Source: a virus. From it: a DNA stretch of 37,004 nucleotides. The notes beneath the pieces were generated by a model. The model did no database searches. It was not told the DNA's origin and saw only the letters and a program-made list of their open reading frames with translations. Position 1 is the first letter of the stretch, and each line of letters starts with the position of its first letter. The DNA lies in IMG/VR virus record IMGVR_UViG_3300042946_000686, positions 1 to 37,004 of that record. One strand, written 5' to 3'. The translations under genes and the position numbers were made by a program. Positions 557-37,004 of this stretch are shown here, piece by piece.

Positions 557-919
557 GTGGCAAACAACAAGCGCCACGGCCTCCGCCTGACACTCGGCGG
601 GGCGCCAGCAACACCGCACACGCTCGCGGGCTTCCGCGGGTACTACCGACCAGACGTCCCGACGCCCGTCGGCCGTCCGGGAGACGTGATCGAGGACATC
701 GCCGAGGCGAAGGAGTTGGCCGCCAAGTGCGCCGACGTCGTCGAACTCGTCGAGATCCCGCAGTCGCAGGTCCAGCGCGCCGAGGCTCAGGCCGCGGCCG
801 ACGTCGAGGACGGGGCCGACGGCCTCGCCGCGGCACGACGCGACGGCAGGGCCTCAGACGACACGTCCCGGTTCGCCGACGAGCGCGACGCCGTGAAGAA
901 GGAGGAGTCCAATGCCTAA
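557..919 (+). CDS. Small tail-region protein of unknown function
   Basis: The product is 120 residues. The GTG at 557 is chosen because AAGGAG lies just upstream with good spacing. The N-terminal half has a compact segment rich in Gly and Pro (about residues 10-40). The C-terminal half is strongly charged and Ala/Asp/Arg rich, probably helical or disordered. Its end overlaps the tail tube gene start at 912. Proteins in this slot in actinophages are often annotated as minor structural or tail-associated proteins. I do not recognise a family. Confidence 0.65.
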   Translation: MANNKRHGLRLTLGGAPATPHTLAGFRGYYRPDVPTPVGRPGDVIEDIAEAKELAAKCADVVELVEIPQSQVQRAEAQAAADVEDGADGLAAARRDGRASDDTSRFADERDAVKKEESNA

Positions 920-1943
920 CGGCTACGCCCGCATCGCATACGAGGACACGCCGGGGAACGAGACCAACACCCCGACGCTGTCGACCAAAAAACTGTTCCC
1001 GCCGATCCAGAGCCTGTCGCCCAAGCCGGGCACGTCGCACCTGATGAGGGACGACGAGGTCAGGAACACCGACGAGCCGCTGGCCGTGATCCCCGAGGCG
1101 TACGCGCCGTCGTGGGACATGAGCTCGCGCGCTTACCCGGACACCCTCGCGTTCACGCTGGGGCTGGCGCTCGGCGCCCCCAGCACCACCGCTGGGGACG
1201 GCGCCATCACGGACCTCGCCGGGACCGCCGTGCCGACCGGGGCGTACCGCCACAGGTGGACCGCGCCGTTCGGGCCGACCGGACCGTCGCCGCGCTCGGC
1301 GCAGTTCGACGTCGCGTACAGCGACCAGTCGGTCTATTACAAGCTCAAGGGCGCCGGCGTGTCCGAGCTCGGGATCTCGAGCCCGGAGGAGGGCGGCGTC
1401 CAGCTGTCCGCGTCCGGCCCGTGCCTGTACATGGACCGCCAGAACGACCCGTCGCTGACGCCGTCGTACGAGTCCCTGTCGATCCGCCCGTTCACCCGGG
1501 GCAACCTGACGCTCCCGTCCAACCTGTCCGGGACCGGCACCACGGAGGACTTCACCGTGTCGATCAGCAACCCGATCGACGTCGTCCGGTCGCTGGGCAT
1601 CGCGTCCCGCTGGCCTGACGTCCTCGAGAAGGACGCCGAGGGGCCGATCGTCGTGTCCGGCGAGATCAGCAAGCGCCAGCTCGACGCTGACGACGTGGAC
1701 GCGCTCAAGAACGCCACCGGGTTCGCCCTGCGCGCGCAGTGGTCGTCCGACACGAACATCGGGGCGACGTCGTACCCGTACAAGTTCACGGTCAAGTGCG
1801 ACAACGCTCAGTACACCGACGGCGACCCGGACGGCCTCCAAAACCGCCGCCGGCACGGCCACTCGTTCATGTGGAAGTCCACCACGACCTCGACTGGGTC
1901 GACGACCGTGGAGGTCGTCAACGCCACCTCGTCGTACTCGTAG
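912..1943 (+). CDS. Major tail (tube) protein
   Basis: The product is 343 residues, starting at ATG 912 behind an AGGAGT SD. It lies between the tail-terminator-like gene and the tail chaperones, where siphoviruses keep the tail tube gene. Ser/Thr/Gly-rich beta-type sequence dominates, and the C-terminal Ser/Thr-rich tail looks like an exposed strand. Tube proteins polymerise into hexameric rings around the tape measure. Its stop (TAG 1941-1943) is directly followed by sequence encoding the conserved N-terminus of the DegT aminotransferase in the +1 frame. The function is inferred from position, length and composition. Confidence 0.72.
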   Translation: MPNGYARIAYEDTPGNETNTPTLSTKKLFPPIQSLSPKPGTSHLMRDDEVRNTDEPLAVIPEAYAPSWDMSSRAYPDTLAFTLGLALGAPSTTAGDGAITDLAGTAVPTGAYRHRWTAPFGPTGPSPRSAQFDVAYSDQSVYYKLKGAGVSELGISSPEEGGVQLSASGPCLYMDRQNDPSLTPSYESLSIRPFTRGNLTLPSNLSGTGTTEDFTVSISNPIDVVRSLGIASRWPDVLEKDAEGPIVVSGEISKRQLDADDVDALKNATGFALRAQWSSDTNIGATSYPYKFTVKCDNAQYTDGDPDGLQNRRRHGHSFMWKSTTTSTGSTTVEVVNATSSYS

Positions 1944-2004: not shown

Positions 2005-2949
2005 ATGTCGTCCGGCGTGTACGTCGACGGCCCCGAGAGGGCCGCGTTCGAGTCCGAGTTCGCCGAGCACTGCGGCCGCCGTCACGCGGTCGGGGTGGGT
2101 TCCGGCACCGACGCCATCGCACTCGCGCTCGAGGCGATGGGCGTCACCGGCGAGGTGATCGTGCCCGCGCTGACGTTCGCCGCCACCGCTGCCGCGGTGG
2201 TTCGGGCCGGCGCGACACCCGTGTTCTGCGACGTCGGCCCGGAGTACACCGTCACCCAGTCGCGCGTCGACGCCGTCACGACGGCGGCGACCGACGGCGT
2301 CGTGCCGGTCCACCTGTTCGGGTCGCCGTGCGGCAGGATACGCCGCTCGCTCGTTCAGGACGCCGCTCAGGCGGCAGGGGCGTCCGACCTGCCGCCGGGT
2401 ACCGCCGCCTTCTCGTTCTACCCGTCCAAGAACCTCCCGTCGGCCGGCGACGCGGGCGCCGTCGTCACCGACGACCCGGAACTCGCCGCCCGGGTCAAAT
2501 CCATCGGGGACCACGGTCGGCTCGACGGCTCGCACGTCCGGGTCGGCACGACCTCCCGGCTGGACGAGGTCCAGGCCGCCGTCCTGCGGGTGAACTTGCG
2601 GATGCTCCCCGAGTGGTCGGCAAGACGGCGCGAGATCGCCGACGCGTACGACGACGTGCTCGGGTCCGCGGCCATGCCGCGCCCGCCCGGGTCGTGCCCG
2701 CACCTGTACGTGATCCGGCCGACCGACCGCGACGCGACCGCCGCCGCGATGTCCGACATGGGCGTCGATACCGGCGTGTACTACGCCACCCCACTCCACC
2801 ACCAGCCGGCGTTCGCCAGATGGGCCCGGGGACCGCTCCCCGTGGCCGAGCAGGCGTCGGAGACCATGCTGTGCCTGCCGATCGGCCCCGCCATGACCGA
2901 CCAGCAGGTCGAGACCGTACAACGAGCGATACAGGAGGCGATGACGTGA
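2005..2949 (+). CDS. DegT/DnrJ/EryC1-family PLP sugar aminotransferase (N-terminus may begin at CTG 1951)
   Basis: This is a pyridoxal-phosphate sugar aminotransferase of the kind that converts a keto-sugar nucleotide to the amino sugar. Family landmarks are clear, counted from ATG 2005: the GSGTDAIALAL helix (32-42), the HLFGSPCG segment (103-110), the PLP-interacting Asp in QDAAQAAGA (Asp119), and the Schiff-base lysine in SFYPSKNLPSAGDAG (Lys142). Family members usually start about 18-20 residues earlier with a PLFxPxxP-type strand. The in-frame codons 1951-2004 encode exactly such a segment (LFSPVAPSGDAA) but contain no ATG, GTG or TTG. A CTG at 1951 has AGGA five bases upstream, whereas ATG 2005 has no clear SD. 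Starting at CTG would give 332 residues instead of 314. It sits between tail tube and tail chaperone genes, so it would be made with virion proteins. It probably works with the oxidoreductase, acetyltransferase and glycosyltransferase at 28.1-30.2 kb. Confidence 0.88.
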   Translation: MSSGVYVDGPERAAFESEFAEHCGRRHAVGVGSGTDAIALALEAMGVTGEVIVPALTFAATAAAVVRAGATPVFCDVGPEYTVTQSRVDAVTTAATDGVVPVHLFGSPCGRIRRSLVQDAAQAAGASDLPPGTAAFSFYPSKNLPSAGDAGAVVTDDPELAARVKSIGDHGRLDGSHVRVGTTSRLDEVQAAVLRVNLRMLPEWSARRREIADAYDDVLGSAAMPRPPGSCPHLYVIRPTDRDATAAAMSDMGVDTGVYYATPLHHQPAFARWARGPLPVAEQASETMLCLPIGPAMTDQQVETVQRAIQEAMT

Positions 2950-3534: not shown

Positions 3535-5496
3535 GTGGCTAGGGGCAAGCGCGTCACGATCCCGATCGAGCTCGACGCGTCCGGCCTTCGCCGCGGCGCG
3601 AACGACGCGACCCGCGCGCTGAAGAAGTTCGACAACGACGGCACGAGGGCGATCCGCGGCGTCGACGACGCGACGACCCGCCTGTCGGGCAACTTCCGCC
3701 GCGCCGCCCGGTACGCCGCCGGGGCCGCCGCCGCGTACGTGTCCATCGACCAAGCGAGGGCGGCCGTCGAGACGACGGTCGAACTCGGCAAGGGCACGCT
3801 GCTGCTCAGTCGCAACCTCGGCCTGTCGACCAAGACCGCGTCGTCATTCGCCGCCGTCGCCAAGGCCCGCGGCGCCGACGTCAAGGCCCTGTCCATGTCG
3901 TTCGCGTCCTTGTCGCGGAACGTCGAGTCGGCCAAGTCCGGCAGCGAGGCGTCCATTGACACCTTCAAGGGGCTGGGGATCACCGTCCGCGACCTAAACA
4001 CGCTGAGCCCCGACCAGCTCATGTCGCGGATCGCCGCCGGCGTGGAGGACATGGGGACCGGCTTCGAGCGGATGAACGTCCAGAGGACCCTGTTCGGCCG
4101 CGGGTGGCAAACGATCTCGGGTCTGCTCCGCGAGGGGCCGGAAGCCCTGAAGGACAACCTCCGCGAGGCGACCAACCTCGGCGCGGCGTTCGACGACTTG
4201 TCCCTGTCCAAGATCGAGGGCCTCATCGGCGCCCAGCGTCGGCTGAAGCTCGCCCAGATGGGCCTGCAGATCAGTTTCACCCAGATCATCGCCCCCGCCG
4301 TCGAGGACGCCGCGGACGAGCTCGCCAGGATGTCGCGGATCCTCCGCAACCCGAACCTGTCCAACACCGAGAAGTTCGACCGCATCGGCGACGCCATCAG
4401 GAACAAGATCACCAAGGTCATCCCCCCGGTCGTCCGCCAGATCGGCAGGATGGCGCCCGACATCGCCAAGGCGCTCGTCCAAGGCTTCCTGCAGGCGCCG
4501 ATCTGGGGCCAGTTCCTGATCGGGGCGTGGGTCGCCAAGAAGTTCCCGATGGGCGCGTTCGGTGCCGCTGGCAAGACCGCTGGGACCAAGTTCGCCACCG
4601 CGTTCATCGCCGGGACGATCTTGTTCCTCAATAACAACCAGCCCGCCATCGAGAACTGGATAAAGAAGAACCTGCCGTTCGTGTGGAAGATCATGTCGGG
4701 CCTGCCGGACCCCGAGTTGTTCGCGCGGGGCGGCACCGTCCCGGGCACCGGATCGGGCGACACCGTCCCAGCGATGCTCGAGCCGGGGGAGTTCGTCGTC
4801 AACCGACGAGCCGTCCGGGCCATCGGCGAGGACACCCTTCGCAAGGTCAACGACTCCGTGCCGCGGTTCGCCGACGGCGGCATGGTGGGACGCGCCGCGA
4901 CCGCCGGGTCGTCAACGCTCGGGAGCGGGCTGTCGGCCCTCGAGATCGCGCTGGCGACCGCGCAGTTGACGCCCGACACGACCGACGACGTCGCGGCCGC
5001 CACGAAGTTGAGGGACTACTGGCGGTCACGCTCGACGAAACTCCGCGACCTGTTCGTGGTCAAGCCGCGGAATGTCCACGGCAAGAAGGGGACGGGCGAC
5101 TACTTCGGGCTGCTGCCGTTCCAATGGCTTCAGGCGCAGAAGTTCCTCCGCACCACCGGCAAGAAGCCGCTCAAGCCGAAGGAGATCAGCGCCGCGCGCG
5201 ACCGCGCCCGCGAGGCCGCCCGTGGCGAGTTGCTGGCCGCGCTCCAATCGCAGTCGTCGTACGAGTCCATGATCTCGTCGTCGTCCGAGTCCGACGGCAC
5301 GGCCGACCTGCTGCGAGCGCAGAACGAACTCCTCGCCCAGCAGGCGGCTGACCGCCAGGCCATGCTCAACGTGTCGCAGTCCCAGTACGGCGTGCTCGTT
5401 CAGGCGCTGGCCGCGGCCGTGTCCGGCCACATCGGCGGCAAGGTCGGGCTGGGATCGCAGGCGCCATCGGTGGCCGGAAGGCTGGCGGCGTACTGA
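3535..5496 (+). CDS. Tape measure protein
   Basis: The product is 653 residues, starting at GTG 3535 with GGAAGGGG upstream. It determines tail length and is ejected during infection. N-terminal residues 1-110 are helical and Ala/Arg/Asp rich. Around residues 320-365 there is a hydrophobic segment with transmembrane potential. Near residues 400-425 there is the GGTVPGTGSGDTVPAMLEPGEFVV-type motif often seen in tape measures of Gram-positive phages (positions 4731-4800). The C-terminus is helical, with Gln/Ala-rich coiled-coil-like sequence (about 590-640). At the usual roughly 1.5 angstrom per residue the tail would be near 100 nm. It directly follows the chaperone genes. Confidence 0.9.
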   Translation: MARGKRVTIPIELDASGLRRGANDATRALKKFDNDGTRAIRGVDDATTRLSGNFRRAARYAAGAAAAYVSIDQARAAVETTVELGKGTLLLSRNLGLSTKTASSFAAVAKARGADVKALSMSFASLSRNVESAKSGSEASIDTFKGLGITVRDLNTLSPDQLMSRIAAGVEDMGTGFERMNVQRTLFGRGWQTISGLLREGPEALKDNLREATNLGAAFDDLSLSKIEGLIGAQRRLKLAQMGLQISFTQIIAPAVEDAADELARMSRILRNPNLSNTEKFDRIGDAIRNKITKVIPPVVRQIGRMAPDIAKALVQGFLQAPIWGQFLIGAWVAKKFPMGAFGAAGKTAGTKFATAFIAGTILFLNNNQPAIENWIKKNLPFVWKIMSGLPDPELFARGGTVPGTGSGDTVPAMLEPGEFVVNRRAVRAIGEDTLRKVNDSVPRFADGGMVGRAATAGSSTLGSGLSALEIALATAQLTPDTTDDVAAATKLRDYWRSRSTKLRDLFVVKPRNVHGKKGTGDYFGLLPFQWLQAQKFLRTTGKKPLKPKEISAARDRAREAARGELLAALQSQSSYESMISSSSESDGTADLLRAQNELLAQQAADRQAMLNVSQSQYGVLVQALAAAVSGHIGGKVGLGSQAPSVAGRLAAY

Positions 5497-8111: not shown

Positions 8112-9812
8112 ATGGACCCGGCGCTCGAGCACAGGACCCGACTGGGCGTCGTCGTCACGGACGGCAGGGGGTATTCCCAGCGGTGGGGCGCCGACGACCC
8201 GGACGCCGACAACGTGCCGACGCGGATGTCGTTCAGCACGTCGATCCCGGGCGGGTTCAAGGACTGCAACGTGACGCTCCCCCGCCAGATCACCGAGGAC
8301 TACCCCGACCTGTCGCTGCTGGCCGACGTCAAGGTCGCCGGGCCTGGCGGCCAGACCGCGTGGGAGGGCAGGGTCGCCCAACTCCCGCGCAGTCACGGCG
8401 ACGCGAAGGCGATCACGGTGGGGTCCGTCGGGTGGTCGGCGCACCTGCGCGACGACGCGTCGTTCCGCGAGGTGTACGTCGACCGGGACCTCGCAAGGTG
8501 GGGTCCGTCCAGTTCCTACCGCAAACTGCTCCTCATCGGCGGGTTCTCGCAGAACGTGACCGACTCGTCGACCAACCCAGACACGTCGTCTGGGGCGCCC
8601 GCGCTGTACACGTCGATCGACGGCGCGTGGGGATCGGGTGCCGCGCAGATCGCCGAGGCCACCTACGACGCGGGCGACGGCGTGACCATCGGGTCCGTGT
8701 ACTACGCGTGGTCGCAGGCGCTGCAGGGACCGGTGTGGAACGACGCCACGTACGGGTCCAACTGGTCGTGGACCGTCGCGGTCGGGACCGACGACACGTT
8801 CACCGCGCTGGACGTCACGGCCAACCTCAGGGCAGCGGGCCCGGGGACCGGCACGCTGTCGTCGACCACGACGACCCGTCGGTTCGCCAAGGTCGCGCTG
8901 TCGTACCTCACGTCGCCGGGCGGCGTCCCCGGCAAGCTGAACCCGATCGCGTGGACGTGCCTCGCCGTGTACGGGAACCACGGCCTGACCAAACGCGGGG
9001 CCGACTCGGCCACCGGCGCGCGCGGGTTCTACGCGTCCGACGTCATCGCGGACGTGGTCGCCCGGGCCGCGCCGCTTGTGAACTTCACGACCGGGTCGGA
9101 TGGTTCCATTGAGAACTCGTTCTTCGTGATCCCGCAGCTGTCCCTCAACGACCCGGTCACGGCCGAGGACGCGATCCTCGCGGCCAACGCGTACCACCTG
9201 TGGGAGTGGGGCGTGTACGACGAGCGCACCTTTTTCTGGCGCCAGCCCGACCCCGACCGTCTCGTGTACGAGGCCCGACTGTCGGACGGCGCGTCGGTCG
9301 AGCTCGAGGGCCAGCAGGCCGAGACGTCGTACAACGGCGTCGTCGTCAAGTACAAGGACCCGTCCGGCCAGACCGCCACGGTCGGACCGCCCGGGTCTGG
9401 CTCGTCCAGCACGGACGCGTCGCTGGCCGACACGTCCGACACGAACCCCGTCAACGCCGCGGGCGTGCCGCGCCGCTGGGCGGTCCTCGACATCTCGCAG
9501 ACCACCACCGCCGCCGGGGCGATCCAACTCGGGGCCACGTGGCTCGCGGAGCAGGCGCTGCCCGCCCGGCGCGGCCAGCTGACGCTGACGGGCGAGGTCG
9601 AGCACCCGACCGAGGGGCGCGTCCCCGTGTGGCGGGTGCGCGCTGGGGATCACATCCGCATCGCGGACTTCCCAGCCGACGTGGCGCGCCGCATCATTGA
9701 GACCGACTACGACCACGAGACGCGCACCATCACCTTGTCGCTGGACAACCGCGCGTTTAAGCTCGAGGCGATACTTGAGCGGCTCGGCGTGTCGCTGGTG
9801 GGGGTGATCTAA
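8112..9812 (+). CDS. Tail tip / minor tail protein
   Basis: The product is 566 residues, starting at ATG 8112 immediately after the preceding TAG. It is mostly beta-type sequence with an N-terminal segment typical of hub-like minor tail proteins (about residues 1-120, with [12 protein letters not shown]). A Ser/Gly/Asp-rich linker lies around 420-440, and a C-terminal OB- or barrel-like stretch ([16 protein letters not shown], about 510-525) resembles that of tail hub or siphovirus Gp37/ReqiPepy6-like proteins. Its position between the carbohydrate-binding tail protein and a small possible fibre protein supports a baseplate role. No enzymatic motif is evident. Confidence 0.7.
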
Positions 9813-27999: not shown

Positions 28000-28070
28000 A
28001 GCGCCGCGGAGTAAAGGCAGCTCGCCGAGCACACCACTCGGAGAAGCGGGTTCAAGTCCCGCCGGCGCCA
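28000..28070 (+). tRNA. tRNA-like gene, nominal anticodon CAC (Val), with degenerate signature bases
   Basis: All four arms fold: acceptor 28000-28006 with 28063-28069 (six pairs, with A-C at the first), D-arm 28009-28023, anticodon stem CCGAG/CTCGG (28025-28041) around CACACCA, and T-arm GCGGG-TTCAAGT-CCCGC (28046-28062). The conserved A14, G18, G19, A21 and TTCAAGT are present. However, position 8 is C, position 33 is A rather than U, position 37 is C and the first acceptor pair is mismatched. CCA is not encoded. It may be decaying or specialised. Confidence 0.6.
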
Positions 28071-28093: not shown

Positions 28094-28498
28094 GTGATCC
28101 ACGAGACCGCCGTCATCGGATCACCGCCCGAGGTCCGCGAATGGTCCGAGGGCCACGAGTGCTTCGACCCGGTCATCGGCGACGAGGTCAGGATAAGCGC
28201 GTTCGTCACCGTCGACGCGGGTTTCTGCCAGCCCACCCGGGTCGGCGACGGTTCGTTCCTGATGGCTCACGTCCACGTCGGCCACGACTGCAGCATCGGC
28301 CGCCGTGTCGAGATCGCAGCGGGCGCCACGCTCGCGGGTCACGTGACCGTTGGCGACGACGCCAAGATCGGCGTCGGCGCGTCGATCAGGCCGTACGTGT
28401 CGATCGGCGTTGGGGCCAGGATCGGCGCCGGGGCCGTGGTGATCGACGACGTCCCAGCGCACGCCGTCGCGTACGGGTGCCCAGCGAGGCCCCGATGA
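28094..28498 (+). CDS. Left-handed beta-helix (hexapeptide) acyltransferase
   Basis: The product is 134 residues. GTG 28094 has GGAGG six bases upstream. Hexapeptide repeats run through most of the protein (for example IGDEVRISAFVTV, VGDGSFLMAHVHVGHDCSIG, IAAGATLAGHVTVGDDAKIGVGASI). The catalytic-type His lies within HVHVGHDC. The YGCPARP ending is typical of sugar O/N-acetyltransferases. It is shorter than WlbB/FdtC-type enzymes. It is translationally coupled to a glycosyltransferase and oxidoreductase, so it probably N-acetylates the amino sugar made by the DegT enzyme. Confidence 0.85.
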   Translation: MIHETAVIGSPPEVREWSEGHECFDPVIGDEVRISAFVTVDAGFCQPTRVGDGSFLMAHVHVGHDCSIGRRVEIAAGATLAGHVTVGDDAKIGVGASIRPYVSIGVGARIGAGAVVIDDVPAHAVAYGCPARPR

Positions 28499-29400
28499 GG
28501 GTGGTGGCGCTGATGTCGTGGTACCAAGAGTCCCCGGTGTGGCTGGCCGCCTCGGTCGCGGCAGCCGCCAAGGCGTGCGACCACGTGGTCGCGGTCGACG
28601 GGGCGTACTTCCTCTTCCCGGGCGGGCGACCGAGGTCCGGCTCCGAGCAGGCCGCCGTCATCCAAGAGGTCGCCCACGCCCACGGCATGGGGTCGACCGT
28701 CCACACCCCCGACACCACGTGGGAGGGGAACGAGGTGGAGAAGCGCGCTGCGATGTTCAGACTCGCCGAGACCGTCACCGACGAGGACGACTGGTACTTC
28801 GTGATCGACGCCGACGTGGTGGTCGACGCGGTGCCCGACGACTTTCGGTCGCGCCTGTCGGACACCGACTGCGACACCGCGGAGGTCGGGTTCTGGGAGC
28901 GCGACGACGTGTTCGCCGACCCCGCCAAGGCAGCCGCGGCCCGCAGCATGGACTGGCCGACCAGCGAGTTCCCCGTCCGAGCGCTGTACCGGGCCGTCCG
29001 AGGGCTGACCGTGGTCGACAACCACTACACGTACGTCACCCCCGACGGCCGCACCATGTGGGGCAACAGGCCCCACGAGCTGGAACCGGCGCTTGACATG
29101 ACGGATCTCCGGTGCGAGCACAGGACGAACTTCCGCGACCTCAGCCGGCGCAACATGGCGCGCGACTATTACAAGCGCCGAGACGCGCTCGGCATCGAGT
29201 CCGACACGTGCGGCTTCTGCGGACGCCGCGGGTCGCACGTGATCCCGTACGACTGGCAGCCCGACGGCGACGCGCTGTCGGCGACCAGCGTCGCGGTGTG
29301 CGACGACTGCCTCCCCGACGCGAAGCGCCGTTCCGACGATCAGGTGCGAGCGCTCGGCCGCGACCCGGCTGGCCTCGAGTACGAGGGACCAACATCGTGA
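28495..29400 (+). CDS. GT-A type glycosyltransferase with C-terminal zinc ribbon
   Basis: The product is 301 residues from ATG 28495 (ATGA overlap). The N-terminal part starts like actinophage glycosyltransferases (MSWYQESPVWLAASV, HVVAVDGAYFLFPGGRPRS), with a metal-binding DAD (Asp105-Asp107) in YFVIDADVVVD. A zinc ribbon (CGFCGRR ... CDDC) lies near residues 238-275. It would transfer a sugar from a nucleotide donor. Neighbouring sugar-modifying enzymes suggest the donor is an unusual amino sugar; the acceptor is unknown. Virion proteins or DNA are candidates. Confidence 0.83.
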   Translation: MRVVALMSWYQESPVWLAASVAAAAKACDHVVAVDGAYFLFPGGRPRSGSEQAAVIQEVAHAHGMGSTVHTPDTTWEGNEVEKRAAMFRLAETVTDEDDWYFVIDADVVVDAVPDDFRSRLSDTDCDTAEVGFWERDDVFADPAKAAAARSMDWPTSEFPVRALYRAVRGLTVVDNHYTYVTPDGRTMWGNRPHELEPALDMTDLRCEHRTNFRDLSRRNMARDYYKRRDALGIESDTCGFCGRRGSHVIPYDWQPDGDALSATSVAVCDDCLPDAKRRSDDQVRALGRDPAGLEYEGPTS

Positions 29401-30488
29401 ACATCGCCGTCGTCGGCCTCGGCGTGATGGGCCAGAACCACGCCCGCGTCCTGCGCGCGATGGGGCACGACGTGACCACGGTCGACCCGGCCGGTCACGC
29501 CGACCACACCTCGCTCGCAGGCACCGAACGCGACGACGTCGTGATCGCCACGCCGGCGTCCGACATCCACCGCACGTTCGACGCCGCGGTCAACGACGGG
29601 CGCCGCGTGCTCATGGTCGAGAAGCCGATGGCCGCCGACATGTCGTGCGCGATCGCCATCGCCGACCAGCACCCGGACATGGCCGTCGGGTACGTCGAGC
29701 GCCACAACCCGGCCGTCCGCGCGATGGCCGACAACCTGTACCGGATCGGCGACATCGTCGACTTCAGGTTCGAGCGGCTCGGCCCGGCAGCACGCCACGA
29801 CGTCGACCCGGCCATCGACCTCGCCACCCACGACATCGACCTCGTGAACCACTTCGGCATCGACGCGACCCCGTTGTCGCACCACAACGACGGGGCGCAC
29901 CTCAACGCGCTGTTCGACCTGGGCACCATCCGGGCATCCCACGCCCACCCGACCAAGCGCCGCACGATCCGACTGGTCGGCACCGACGGCGAGCTGTCGT
30001 GCGACCTACGTCGGCAGCGCGTCGTGTTCGTGTACGCCAACGGGTGGACCGACTTGTCGCCACCGGTCGAGGAGCCGCTCGTCGCCATGTGGCGCGCGAT
30101 CCTCGGCGACGGCCCGCACGCCACCGCGACCGACGCCGTCCGAACGCTGGCGACCGCCACCACCTTATGCCACACGCCACCACGTGCATCGACTGCGGCG
30201 CACTCGTCCCGGCCGGTACCCGCTGCCACGGGTGCCAGGCCCGACGCGACGCCACCCGCAACAGGGACACCCGCGCGTACCGAACGCCCCGATGGCGACG
30301 CGCCCGCGCCGCCGTCGTCCGCCACGGCTGCCACGTGTGCGGGACCACCACCGGGCGGATCGTCGCCCACCACATCGTCCCCCGCGAGGCAGGCGGACCC
30401 GACACCACCGACAACCTCGTCGCACTGTGCCACGGGCACCACGAGCTCGTCGAGGCCCACACCCGACGGGGCACCCCGCACCCGATAG
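29397..30488 (+). CDS. Gfo/Idh/MocA-family sugar oxidoreductase with probable stop-loss extension
   Basis: The product is 363 residues from GTG 29397 (GTGA overlap). The NAD-binding fold has GLGVMG (7-12), the catalytic-type EKP (75-77) and the D-x-x-x-H motif in DLATHDID (Asp141, His145). It resembles WlbA-type enzymes that oxidise UDP-sugars at C3 before amination. Codons 1-257 look genuine. From codon 258 the frame runs 320 bases into the HNH gene and encodes Pro/Ser/Thr-rich sequence with no fold. The TGC at 30168-30170 stands where an ATGA overlap would place TGA. The original protein probably ended at residue 257. Confidence 0.8.
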   Translation: MNIAVVGLGVMGQNHARVLRAMGHDVTTVDPAGHADHTSLAGTERDDVVIATPASDIHRTFDAAVNDGRRVLMVEKPMAADMSCAIAIADQHPDMAVGYVERHNPAVRAMADNLYRIGDIVDFRFERLGPAARHDVDPAIDLATHDIDLVNHFGIDATPLSHHNDGAHLNALFDLGTIRASHAHPTKRRTIRLVGTDGELSCDLRRQRVVFVYANGWTDLSPPVEEPLVAMWRAILGDGPHATATDAVRTLATATTLCHTPPRASTAAHSSRPVPAATGARPDATPPATGTPARTERPDGDAPAPPSSATAATCAGPPPGGSSPTTSSPARQADPTPPTTSSHCATGTTSSSRPTPDGAPRTR

Positions 30489-30526
30489 CCGCCGCCGTTG
30501 ACCGCCACCGCCGCACCGGTACGTGA
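30167..30526 (+). CDS. HNH endonuclease linked to terminase
   Basis: The product is 119 residues from ATG 30167. It has an N-terminal zinc ribbon (CIDCG...CHGC) and a complete HNH motif (CHVCG ... AHHIVPREAGGPDTTDNLVALCHGHHELVEAH). HNH proteins just upstream of the large terminase are required for DNA cleavage in several siphoviruses, probably in making the genome ends. The 97-base gap after it holds an inverted repeat and is a cos candidate. The first 107 codons share DNA with the oxidoreductase's extended frame. Confidence 0.85.
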   Translation: MPHATTCIDCGALVPAGTRCHGCQARRDATRNRDTRAYRTPRWRRARAAVVRHGCHVCGTTTGRIVAHHIVPREAGGPDTTDNLVALCHGHHELVEAHTRRGTPHPIAAAVDRHRRTGT

Positions 30527-30552: not shown

Positions 30553-30626
30553 AGGTTCACGCGTGCGCGCAGGACACTATCCGCGCCACCACGCTTTCCA
30601 AAAAAACCGCTTCTGGGCGTGAACCT
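30553..30626. repeat. Terminase-proximal inverted repeat, possible cos region
   Basis: AGGTTCACGC (30553-30562) and GCGTGAACCT (30617-30626) are perfect 10-bp inverted repeats. They bracket a G8 run (30545-30552, just outside) and an A7 run (30600-30606). The right arm ends on the first base of the TerL start codon. The gap between HNH and TerL is a common place for cos. The alternative role is hairpin control of TerL translation. Confidence 0.5.
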
Positions 30627-32077
30627 TGACCAAGACCGCCGAGATCCCGAGACTCGACGAGCTGGGGCTTCCGACTGACCGACTCGACGGCGCGCTTGCC
30701 GGCGTCGACGAGTTCGAGCGGTTCTGCGCCAGACTGGAGACCACCGAGGGCGACGCCATGTCGCTCGAGCCGTTCCAGCGCCTCATCGTCGCGGCCTACT
30801 TCGCCGGGATGTCCGAGGTGCTGGCACTGATCCCCAAGGGGAACGGTAAGACCGTCCTCCTCGCGGCGATCGCCGTCCACCACCTTACCACGACGAACGC
30901 CGCCGAGGCGTACATCGGCGCGTCGTCCGCCGCGCAGGCGCAGAAGATGTACCGCGAGGCGTCCCGGTTCGCCCGACAGGTCGATCTGCTGCCGTTCCCC
31001 GGGTACATGGAGATCCGCGTCGACAAGGACCCGGCGTTCGGGTACCTGCGGGTGCTCGCGTCGGACAAGGCCGACCGCGGGTCGCTCGAGGGCATCGGCC
31101 CGACCCTCGGTCTGGTCGACGAGCTCCACGCGCACGTCAACGACGCCCTGTACGCCGCGATCCACGGCGCGCTCCACAAGCGCGACGGCCGGATGCTGAC
31201 CATCTCCACCGCCGGGTCGGACGAGGACTCGGTCCTCGGTCGCATCCGCGCGAAGGCGCTGGAACTGCCCAGCGTGACCCGGTCGGACTCGCTGACCATC
31301 GCCCGCGACGACTCGTTCGCCATGTTCGAGTGGGCCGCGTCCGAGGGCGCCGACCTAGACGACATCTCGGTCGTCGCGGACGCCAACCCAGCGTCGTTCG
31401 TCACCGAGGCCAAGTTGCGACGAATAAAGGCGTCCCCGTCCATGACGGCGACGCGGTGGGCGCGGTACCACGCGAACGTGTGGACCCCCGCCGCCGACCA
31501 ATGGCTGCCGCCGGGCACGTGGGACGCGTGCTTCGAAGACGGCGCCGACATCCCCGAGGGCTCCGACGTCGTCGTCGGGGTCGACGTCGGGATAAAGAAG
31601 GACTCGTCCGCCGTCGTGTGGATGCACAAGCGTTCGGACGAGCGGATCGTGGTCAAGGCGACCGTGTTCGCCCCTCAGGGCGACGGGCCTCTGGACCTGT
31701 CGAAGCTCGAGGGCGCGATCCGCGACCTCGCCGACAGGTACCGCGTGATGTCCGTGTCGTACGACCGGTGGTCGTTCGAGCGGTCGGCGCAGATGCTGTC
31801 CGACGAGGGCCTGCTCATGGTCGACTTCCCGATGACCAACGAGCGCACCGTCCCGGCGTCGACCAGGCTGTACGAGGCGATCCAGCAGCACCGCGTCGTC
31901 CACGACGGCGATCCGGTGCTCGCCGCCCACGTCAAGGCCGGCGCGACGAGGGACACCGAGCGCGGATGGCGACTCGCCAAGGGCAAGGCCAAGCGGCCCA
32001 TCGACGCCCTGATCGCCATGCTGATCGCGTTCCCGCAGGCCGACCAGTCAACCACAGGAGGAGGCTTCGAATGGTGA
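30626..32077 (+). CDS. terL: Terminase large subunit
   Basis: The product is 483 residues. TTG 30626 follows no strong SD. The ATPase has a Walker A-like IPKGNGKT (69-76) and Walker B LGLVDE (161-166). The nuclease domain carries GVDVGIKKDSS (Asp320, Asp326) plus later acidic residues. It cuts and pumps DNA into the prohead. No separate small-terminase gene is recognised upstream; the HNH protein may assist cleavage. Its end overlaps the next small gene by 7 bases. Confidence 0.93.
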   Translation: MTKTAEIPRLDELGLPTDRLDGALAGVDEFERFCARLETTEGDAMSLEPFQRLIVAAYFAGMSEVLALIPKGNGKTVLLAAIAVHHLTTTNAAEAYIGASSAAQAQKMYREASRFARQVDLLPFPGYMEIRVDKDPAFGYLRVLASDKADRGSLEGIGPTLGLVDELHAHVNDALYAAIHGALHKRDGRMLTISTAGSDEDSVLGRIRAKALELPSVTRSDSLTIARDDSFAMFEWAASEGADLDDISVVADANPASFVTEAKLRRIKASPSMTATRWARYHANVWTPAADQWLPPGTWDACFEDGADIPEGSDVVVGVDVGIKKDSSAVVWMHKRSDERIVVKATVFAPQGDGPLDLSKLEGAIRDLADRYRVMSVSYDRWSFERSAQMLSDEGLLMVDFPMTNERTVPASTRLYEAIQQHRVVHDGDPVLAAHVKAGATRDTERGWRLAKGKAKRPIDALIAMLIAFPQADQSTTGGGFEW

Positions 32078-36476: not shown

Positions 36477-36937
36477 GCGGCGTCGAGATCGACACCTCCG
36501 ACGTCGACCGCGTCATCATGGACATCCGCGAGTTCCGTAACACTTACTACCGCGCGGTCAAGGGCGGGCTGAAGGACGCCGCCGAGAAGACCATCGTCCC
36601 CGAGATCCAGCGTCGGGCCGTGCCCCAGCGGTACCGGTTCCTCATAACCGCCAAGGCCCGAGGCGTCGGCACCGTCGTCCTCACGACCAAGGGGGCGCTC
36701 ATGCCCGGGCGGATCCTCGGGATGCACAACTACGGCGGCCGTCTGGCGCGCCCGATGTACCCCAAGAAGGCCCGCGCCATCTACACCCGGTTCGGGCCGA
36801 AGGGCGCGCTGAAGGGCGAGACCAAAGTCCCGCGCCGCGAGTTCTTCGAGCGCGGCATCGCCGCCGGGATGGACGCCTACTGCGGGGAGGTCGGCGACGC
36901 CGTCGCTGACCGCCTTCAGGAGGCGTTCACCTCGTGA
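36473..36937 (+). CDS. Head-tail connector / tail completion protein (HK97 gp10-like)
   Basis: The product is 154 residues from GTG 36473 (GTGA overlap). A charged helix (GLKDAAEKTIVPEIQRRAVP) is followed by a beta segment and a GGRLARPMYPKKARAI stretch common in HK97 gp10-type proteins. It likely docks the finished tail to the head. Its C-terminal 34 codons recur at 1-106 because of the contig overlap. Confidence 0.75.
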   Translation: MSGVEIDTSDVDRVIMDIREFRNTYYRAVKGGLKDAAEKTIVPEIQRRAVPQRYRFLITAKARGVGTVVLTTKGALMPGRILGMHNYGGRLARPMYPKKARAIYTRFGPKGALKGETKVPRREFFERGIAAGMDAYCGEVGDAVADRLQEAFTS

Positions 36938-37004
36938 CGAGCACGGTGCTCGACCCGATCGCCGACGGCATCGTGGCAGTCGTCCAGACGCTGTCGCCGA
37001 CCGT
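36832..37004. repeat. Terminal redundancy of the contig, right copy
   Basis: Right-hand copy of bases 1-173, differing only at 36877 (C here, G at 46). It contains the end of the connector gene and the first 71 bases (36934-37004) of the tail-terminator-like gene, which is complete at 103-531. Confidence 0.93.

Follow-up and report, generated by a model that had tools for sequence, protein, structure and literature searches.

What might a virus do with a dehydrogenase, an aminotransferase, an acyltransferase and a glycosyltransferase encoded among its late structural genes? The question is raised by the virus record IMGVR_UViG_3300042946_000686, whose 37,004 bases, the whole stretch of DNA analysed, are referred to here as the window. 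The answer favoured below, to which an even chance is given, is that the four genes form a virion-glycosylation module in an actinophage-like genome and that a nucleotide-sugar pathway leading to a 3-acylamino sugar has been added to this module. The label actinophage-like is a putative one, based on the relatives of the glycosyltransferase. The features that the argument needs are the following:

912 to 1943, plus strand: tail tube protein (PF18906, E 3.4e-8)
2005 to 2949, plus strand: DegT/DnrJ/EryC1/StrS aminotransferase (DegT), 314 aa from ATG (PF01041, E 3.1e-75)
3535 to 5496: tape measure, within the tail genes at the window start
28094 to 28498, plus strand: LbH (hexapeptide) acyltransferase, 134 aa, GTG start (PF00132, E 3.1e-19)
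28495 to 29400, plus strand: GT-A glycosyltransferase (GT), 301 aa (phrog_7009, E 6.2e-52)
29397 to about 30173, plus strand: Gfo/Idh NAD-dependent dehydrogenase (Gfo; PF01408, 26.5 bits, cut-off 24)
30167 to 30526, plus strand: HNH endonuclease (PF01844, E 1.5e-6), overlapping the open Gfo frame
30626 to 32077, plus strand: terminase large subunit, the next gene downstream (PF20441, E 5.6e-16; phrog_9, E 3e-71)

The positions and enzyme classes that a sequence-only reading had assigned to the four genes were borne out by Pfam and PHROG matches in protein-family scans of selected window genes and, for GT, by the GT-A fold of its AlphaFold model. That reading had also placed three of them together upstream of the terminase, and LbH, GT and Gfo are indeed linked by successive overlaps of 4 bp (LbH/GT and GT/Gfo; ATGA, GTGA), with only the HNH gene between this cassette and the terminase. 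DegT, said to follow the tail tube gene, lies directly behind it, and the tail chaperone gene, starting at 2946, overlaps DegT by 4 bp. In four relatives the chaperone begins 0–30 bp after the tube, and this adjacency indicates that DegT is an insertion in the window.

By linear coordinates DegT and the cassette are 26 kb apart. The ends of the window, positions 1–173 and 36832–37004, form a direct repeat of 173 bp (172/173 identical), and therefore the window is probably a complete genome of about 36.8 kb, with either terminal redundancy or a circular assembly behind it; the same repeat means that, if the record is circular, the distance shrinks to about 9 kb. The repeat is present although IMG/VR gives no end repeats for records classed as linear. 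Portal, protease, capsid and connector genes extend from 32271 to near the window end, and the late gene order resumes at the window start with the tail genes. Just 5′ of LbH, a tRNA-like element on the plus strand (28000–28070) reached 38.9 bits in Rfam (gathering threshold 29); ARAGORN reported no tRNA there despite this match, and the element may be degenerate. HNH genes also occur in relatives, at 16–390 in L001, 5866–6237 in L003, 1731–2102 in L004 and 9197–9547 in L005, and their position around the cassette varies, as that of mobile elements would.

The first step of the suspected pathway falls to Gfo. Its best profile match is GnnA (E 8e-21), and GnnA of Acidithiobacillus (PDB 7bvj) is also its best fold match (Z 29.4), tied with further Gfo/Idh enzymes, among them a 1,5-anhydrofructose reductase (Z 28.9). 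The lysine of the EKP motif (K76) and the histidine of the D-x-x-x-H-D motif (H145) are invariant in 15 homologues. The profile of UDP-GlcNAc 3-dehydrogenase (NF040723) also matches (E 1.2e-21), and membership was rejected since its 77.6 bits fall far under the curated cut-off of 450. Gfo is predicted to oxidise a nucleotide sugar at C3, UDP-GlcNAc being the likeliest one. Like the window module, the GnnA/GnnB system does not need oxidation at C6; it supplies lipid A, whereas the window enzyme is partnered with a GT of the phage late region, and Gfo is only 23% identical to GnnA in the structural alignment. A PF01408 profile search of the window returned no Gfo match at the threshold used, though hmmscan matched, and profiles built from the phage Gfo replaced PF01408 in the Gfo searches. 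The reading frame has no stop at 30170 and stays open to 30488, about 105 codons past the homologous end and into the HNH gene, which is read in another frame; insertion of the HNH gene may have removed the Gfo stop codon.

The second step would belong to DegT, which scores 254 bits against PF01041 (gathering threshold 19.8) and whose in-frame homology starts about five codons upstream of its ATG. Its Schiff-base lysine, K142 in SFYPSKNL, aligns with those of DesV, QdtB and WbpE, which, together with 7b0d, are its best PDB matches (DesV as 2oga). DesV, QdtB and WbpE, which are C3 aminotransferases, scored 196–154 bits, against 116 bits or less for perosamine and ArnB-type enzymes, which act at C4. 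By similarity, DegT is thus nearer to the 3-ketosugar than to the C4-specific aminotransferases, with a putative 3-keto-sugar activity.

The third enzyme, LbH, combines hexapeptide repeats with a conserved histidine in a catalytic motif, which places it among the hexapeptide acyltransferases. Its closest PDB match is LpxA, followed by perosamine, pilin and PglD-type N-acetyltransferases. His64, invariant in eight phage homologues, falls in the alignment on the HDC motif that contains the catalytic histidine of LpxA. LpxA itself (TIGR01852) was rejected as an assignment, at 97.8 bits against a cut-off of 231 and with no C-terminal helical domain, as the protein, 134 aa long, has nothing beyond its LbH domain. 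The NeuD/PglB/VioB sugar acetyltransferases (TIGR03570) were not reached either (92.8 bits against 160.8); that match spans model positions 105–202 only, and the N-terminal part is absent.

The three classes recall the three-step chemistry established for WbpB, WbpE and WbpD (WlbA, WlbC and WlbB) on the way to UDP-GlcNAc3NAcA (PMC10622841). The window set would provide the same three reaction types, those of a 3-dehydrogenase, a 3-aminotransferase and an N-acyltransferase. The systems differ in that the Wbp pathway begins with C6 oxidation by WbpA, that WlbB is a more distant relative of the window LbH than LpxA and the PglD-type enzymes are, and that the window genes are split over two sites.

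Do the four genes, then, belong together? Comparison of related phages had been proposed as a check, and a scan of viral contigs for GT yielded 53 loci, in most of which GT lies 3′ of the portal gene with none of the other three. Gfo and GT occur together in the window and in L001–L005, L021, L063, L069, L078, L079 and L080; three more viral Gfo relatives completed the scan (L075–L077), and these lie in LbH-DegT-Gfo clusters that have no GT of the window type; L288 contains a similar cluster. The Gfo homologues of L063, L078, L079 and L080 match mainly in the N-terminal half, for about 160 residues. Between Gfo and GT, L063 also encodes a product of at most 395 aa (8519–9706) that is ATP-grasp-like by eye and may be another sugar-tailoring enzyme. 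Of the 28 best LbH loci, 22 also contain GT, and LbH typically lies a short way 5′ of it. Records of 48 kb (L004) and 43.5 kb (L069) carry LbH, GT and Gfo with DegT absent. DegT (PF01041) was found in only three of 32 GT records, the window, L005 and L021, each time with Gfo and LbH (hypergeometric p 0.004 for this restriction among the 32 records, a value that ignores relatedness and incomplete contigs). Both L005 and L021 have the four genes in one contiguous block, DegT-LbH-GT-Gfo, 5′ of the terminase.

The dependence among the genes is thus nested, not absent: GT alone, LbH with GT, GT with Gfo, and all four. The genes do occur apart, yet in this ordered manner, with DegT only where Gfo and LbH are present. 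The idea of an oxidise, aminate and acylate pathway retains its enzyme classes, their order and the bond between the genes, visible in the L005/L021 block and in cellular genomes, where 64 of the 80 loci of the nearest Gfo homologues have a co-oriented DegT within 1.5 kb. A separate search of actinobacterial Gfo loci found DegT nearby in 18 of 30. By these two counts, what the Gfo subfamily produces is linked to amination. The further idea that the set is self-contained has to be given up, with GT mostly alone, LbH and GT found without Gfo or DegT, and LbH, GT and Gfo without DegT.

The same distribution also speaks against the favoured reading. Of those 28 best LbH loci, 19 hold LbH and GT with neither Gfo nor DegT, as do L039 and L046, so the LbH substrate there cannot be the product of these two enzymes. 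Several phages have Gfo and no DegT; in them the pathway would stop at a keto sugar unless amination is supplied by the host. Two layers could explain this pattern: LbH would be the partner of GT, O- or N-acylating the transferred glycan or a host-made sugar, and Gfo and DegT would be separate, later additions altering the sugar in some phages. The LpxA-type enzymes, the closest solved relatives of LbH, are O-acyltransferases, a point in favour of this explanation. It is nevertheless rather unlikely in our estimate, as DegT stands beside a GT of the window type solely with LbH and Gfo, and lies directly 5′ of LbH in L005 and L021, as expected if an amine is the substrate of LbH.

Phylogenies bear on how the set was assembled. 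The Gfo copies of the phages group into a single clade, with an SH-aLRT of 97 when 50 other rows are included and of 99 with fewer rows; bacterial and archaeal Gfo of many phyla were checked as sources and the phage copies stayed apart, with an Actinomycetes MAG (L120) as the nearest single row. A single origin of the three phage DegT genes, which a 27-row tree had given as one clade (SH-aLRT 98), was broken by better sampling: the addition of actinobacterial homologues, up to 49% identical, splits the window DegT from those of L005 and L021, and one phage clade is not rejected in the enlarged tree (AU p 0.325). As far as these trees indicate, DegT may have been recruited twice, independently. 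A second independent recruitment into a phage with Gfo, LbH and GT would, if true, be strong functional evidence.

The remaining question is what receives the sugar. GT has no match in Pfam; its phrog_7009 'glycosyltransferase' match covers positions 1–226 of the 242 of the model, and with the GT-A fold (pLDDT 90.7) and its DxD metal motif, whose D105 and D107 are invariant in 26 homologues, it belongs to that family. The nearest folds in VIA-align are ThuS (Z 16.1) and SunS (Z 14.9), both peptide S-glycosyltransferases. They share with GT the GT-A fold and act on peptides; they differ in their low identity to it (9–15%) and in the C-terminal module of GT (residues 227–301), for which no relative was identified. 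The module is zinc-finger-like, with four cysteines (C239, C242, C269 and C272) invariant in the six closest homologues, and these 75 residues are confined to close relatives.

The GT family is known from mycobacteriophages. Over 225 residues GT is 39–43% identical to glycosyltransferases of mycobacteriophages (cluster J, such as Baka), and these matches stop at residue 225. In Baka a GT of the same family lies between capsid and connector genes, so that both systems have a phage-encoded GT among structural genes; unlike in the window, the GT cluster of Baka has none of these sugar-synthesis genes in the stretch read. No homologue of the window Gfo was detectable among INPHARED phages, and no mycobacteriophage was among the DegT or LbH matches. 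The C-termini of capsid and tail-tube proteins of mycobacteriophages are reported to be glycosylated (Freeman 2023, cited in PMC12619734 and PMC11600133). In the window, the C-terminus of the tail tube protein is Ser/Thr-rich and ends in STTTSTGSTTVEVVNATSSYS, a feature common to relatives, which makes this end a plausible candidate O-glycosylation region. A search for GT in 396 actinobacterial genomes gave four matches only, all weak beside the phage copies, and for this reason no prophage host was identified.

Two other acceptors deserve weighing. The module might alter the host surface, by superinfection exclusion or an altered receptor, and leave the virion untouched. Nucleotide-amino-sugar genes usually serve surface polysaccharides, and the closest cellular Gfo loci hold DegT too and sometimes LbH. 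We nonetheless regard a host-surface role as quite improbable: Pfam and PHROG matches among the proteins scanned included neither a flippase nor a glycosyltransferase of lipid-linked or polytopic type, the GT model looks soluble with no membrane segment noted, and the genes sit among late structural genes, with DegT coupled to the tail chaperone. GT might instead modify the bases of the phage DNA, as in hypermodified phages. An N6/N4 DNA methyltransferase gene was found upstream in the family scan, and PMC12619734 (citing Pyle 2024) describes phage glycosyltransferases that modify DNA. Such a role is highly improbable, as no base-hydroxylating or hydroxymethylating enzyme appeared among the proteins scanned, which cover part of the genome, and the best fold neighbours of GT act on peptides, teichoic acids and polysaccharides.

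In the virion-glycosylation reading, Gfo would act first, oxidising a host nucleotide sugar at C3, with UDP-GlcNAc as the most likely substrate. DegT would aminate the resulting 3-keto sugar, and LbH would acylate the amine so formed, with acetyl-CoA as the probable donor. The GT-A enzyme, in the cytosol, would then move the 3-acylamino sugar onto a phage protein. The tail tube or the capsid would be the likeliest acceptors because the late structural genes surround all four. A broader proposal, possible but on balance doubtful, is that small phages of about 37 kb build a complete 3-acylamino nucleotide-sugar pathway step by step (first GT, next LbH and/or Gfo, last DegT) and decorate their own virions with the product, DegT having been recruited independently in two lineages and in one of them into the tail operon. 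Literature searches with partial journal coverage found no phage described with this combination of genes. Known glycosylation of phage virions has been described mainly via glycosyltransferases, and a phage making a sugar that its host does not make would, if true, control its own glycan chemistry. The nested series of GT alone, LbH with GT, GT with Gfo, and all four genes provides a natural test set for the contribution of each enzyme.
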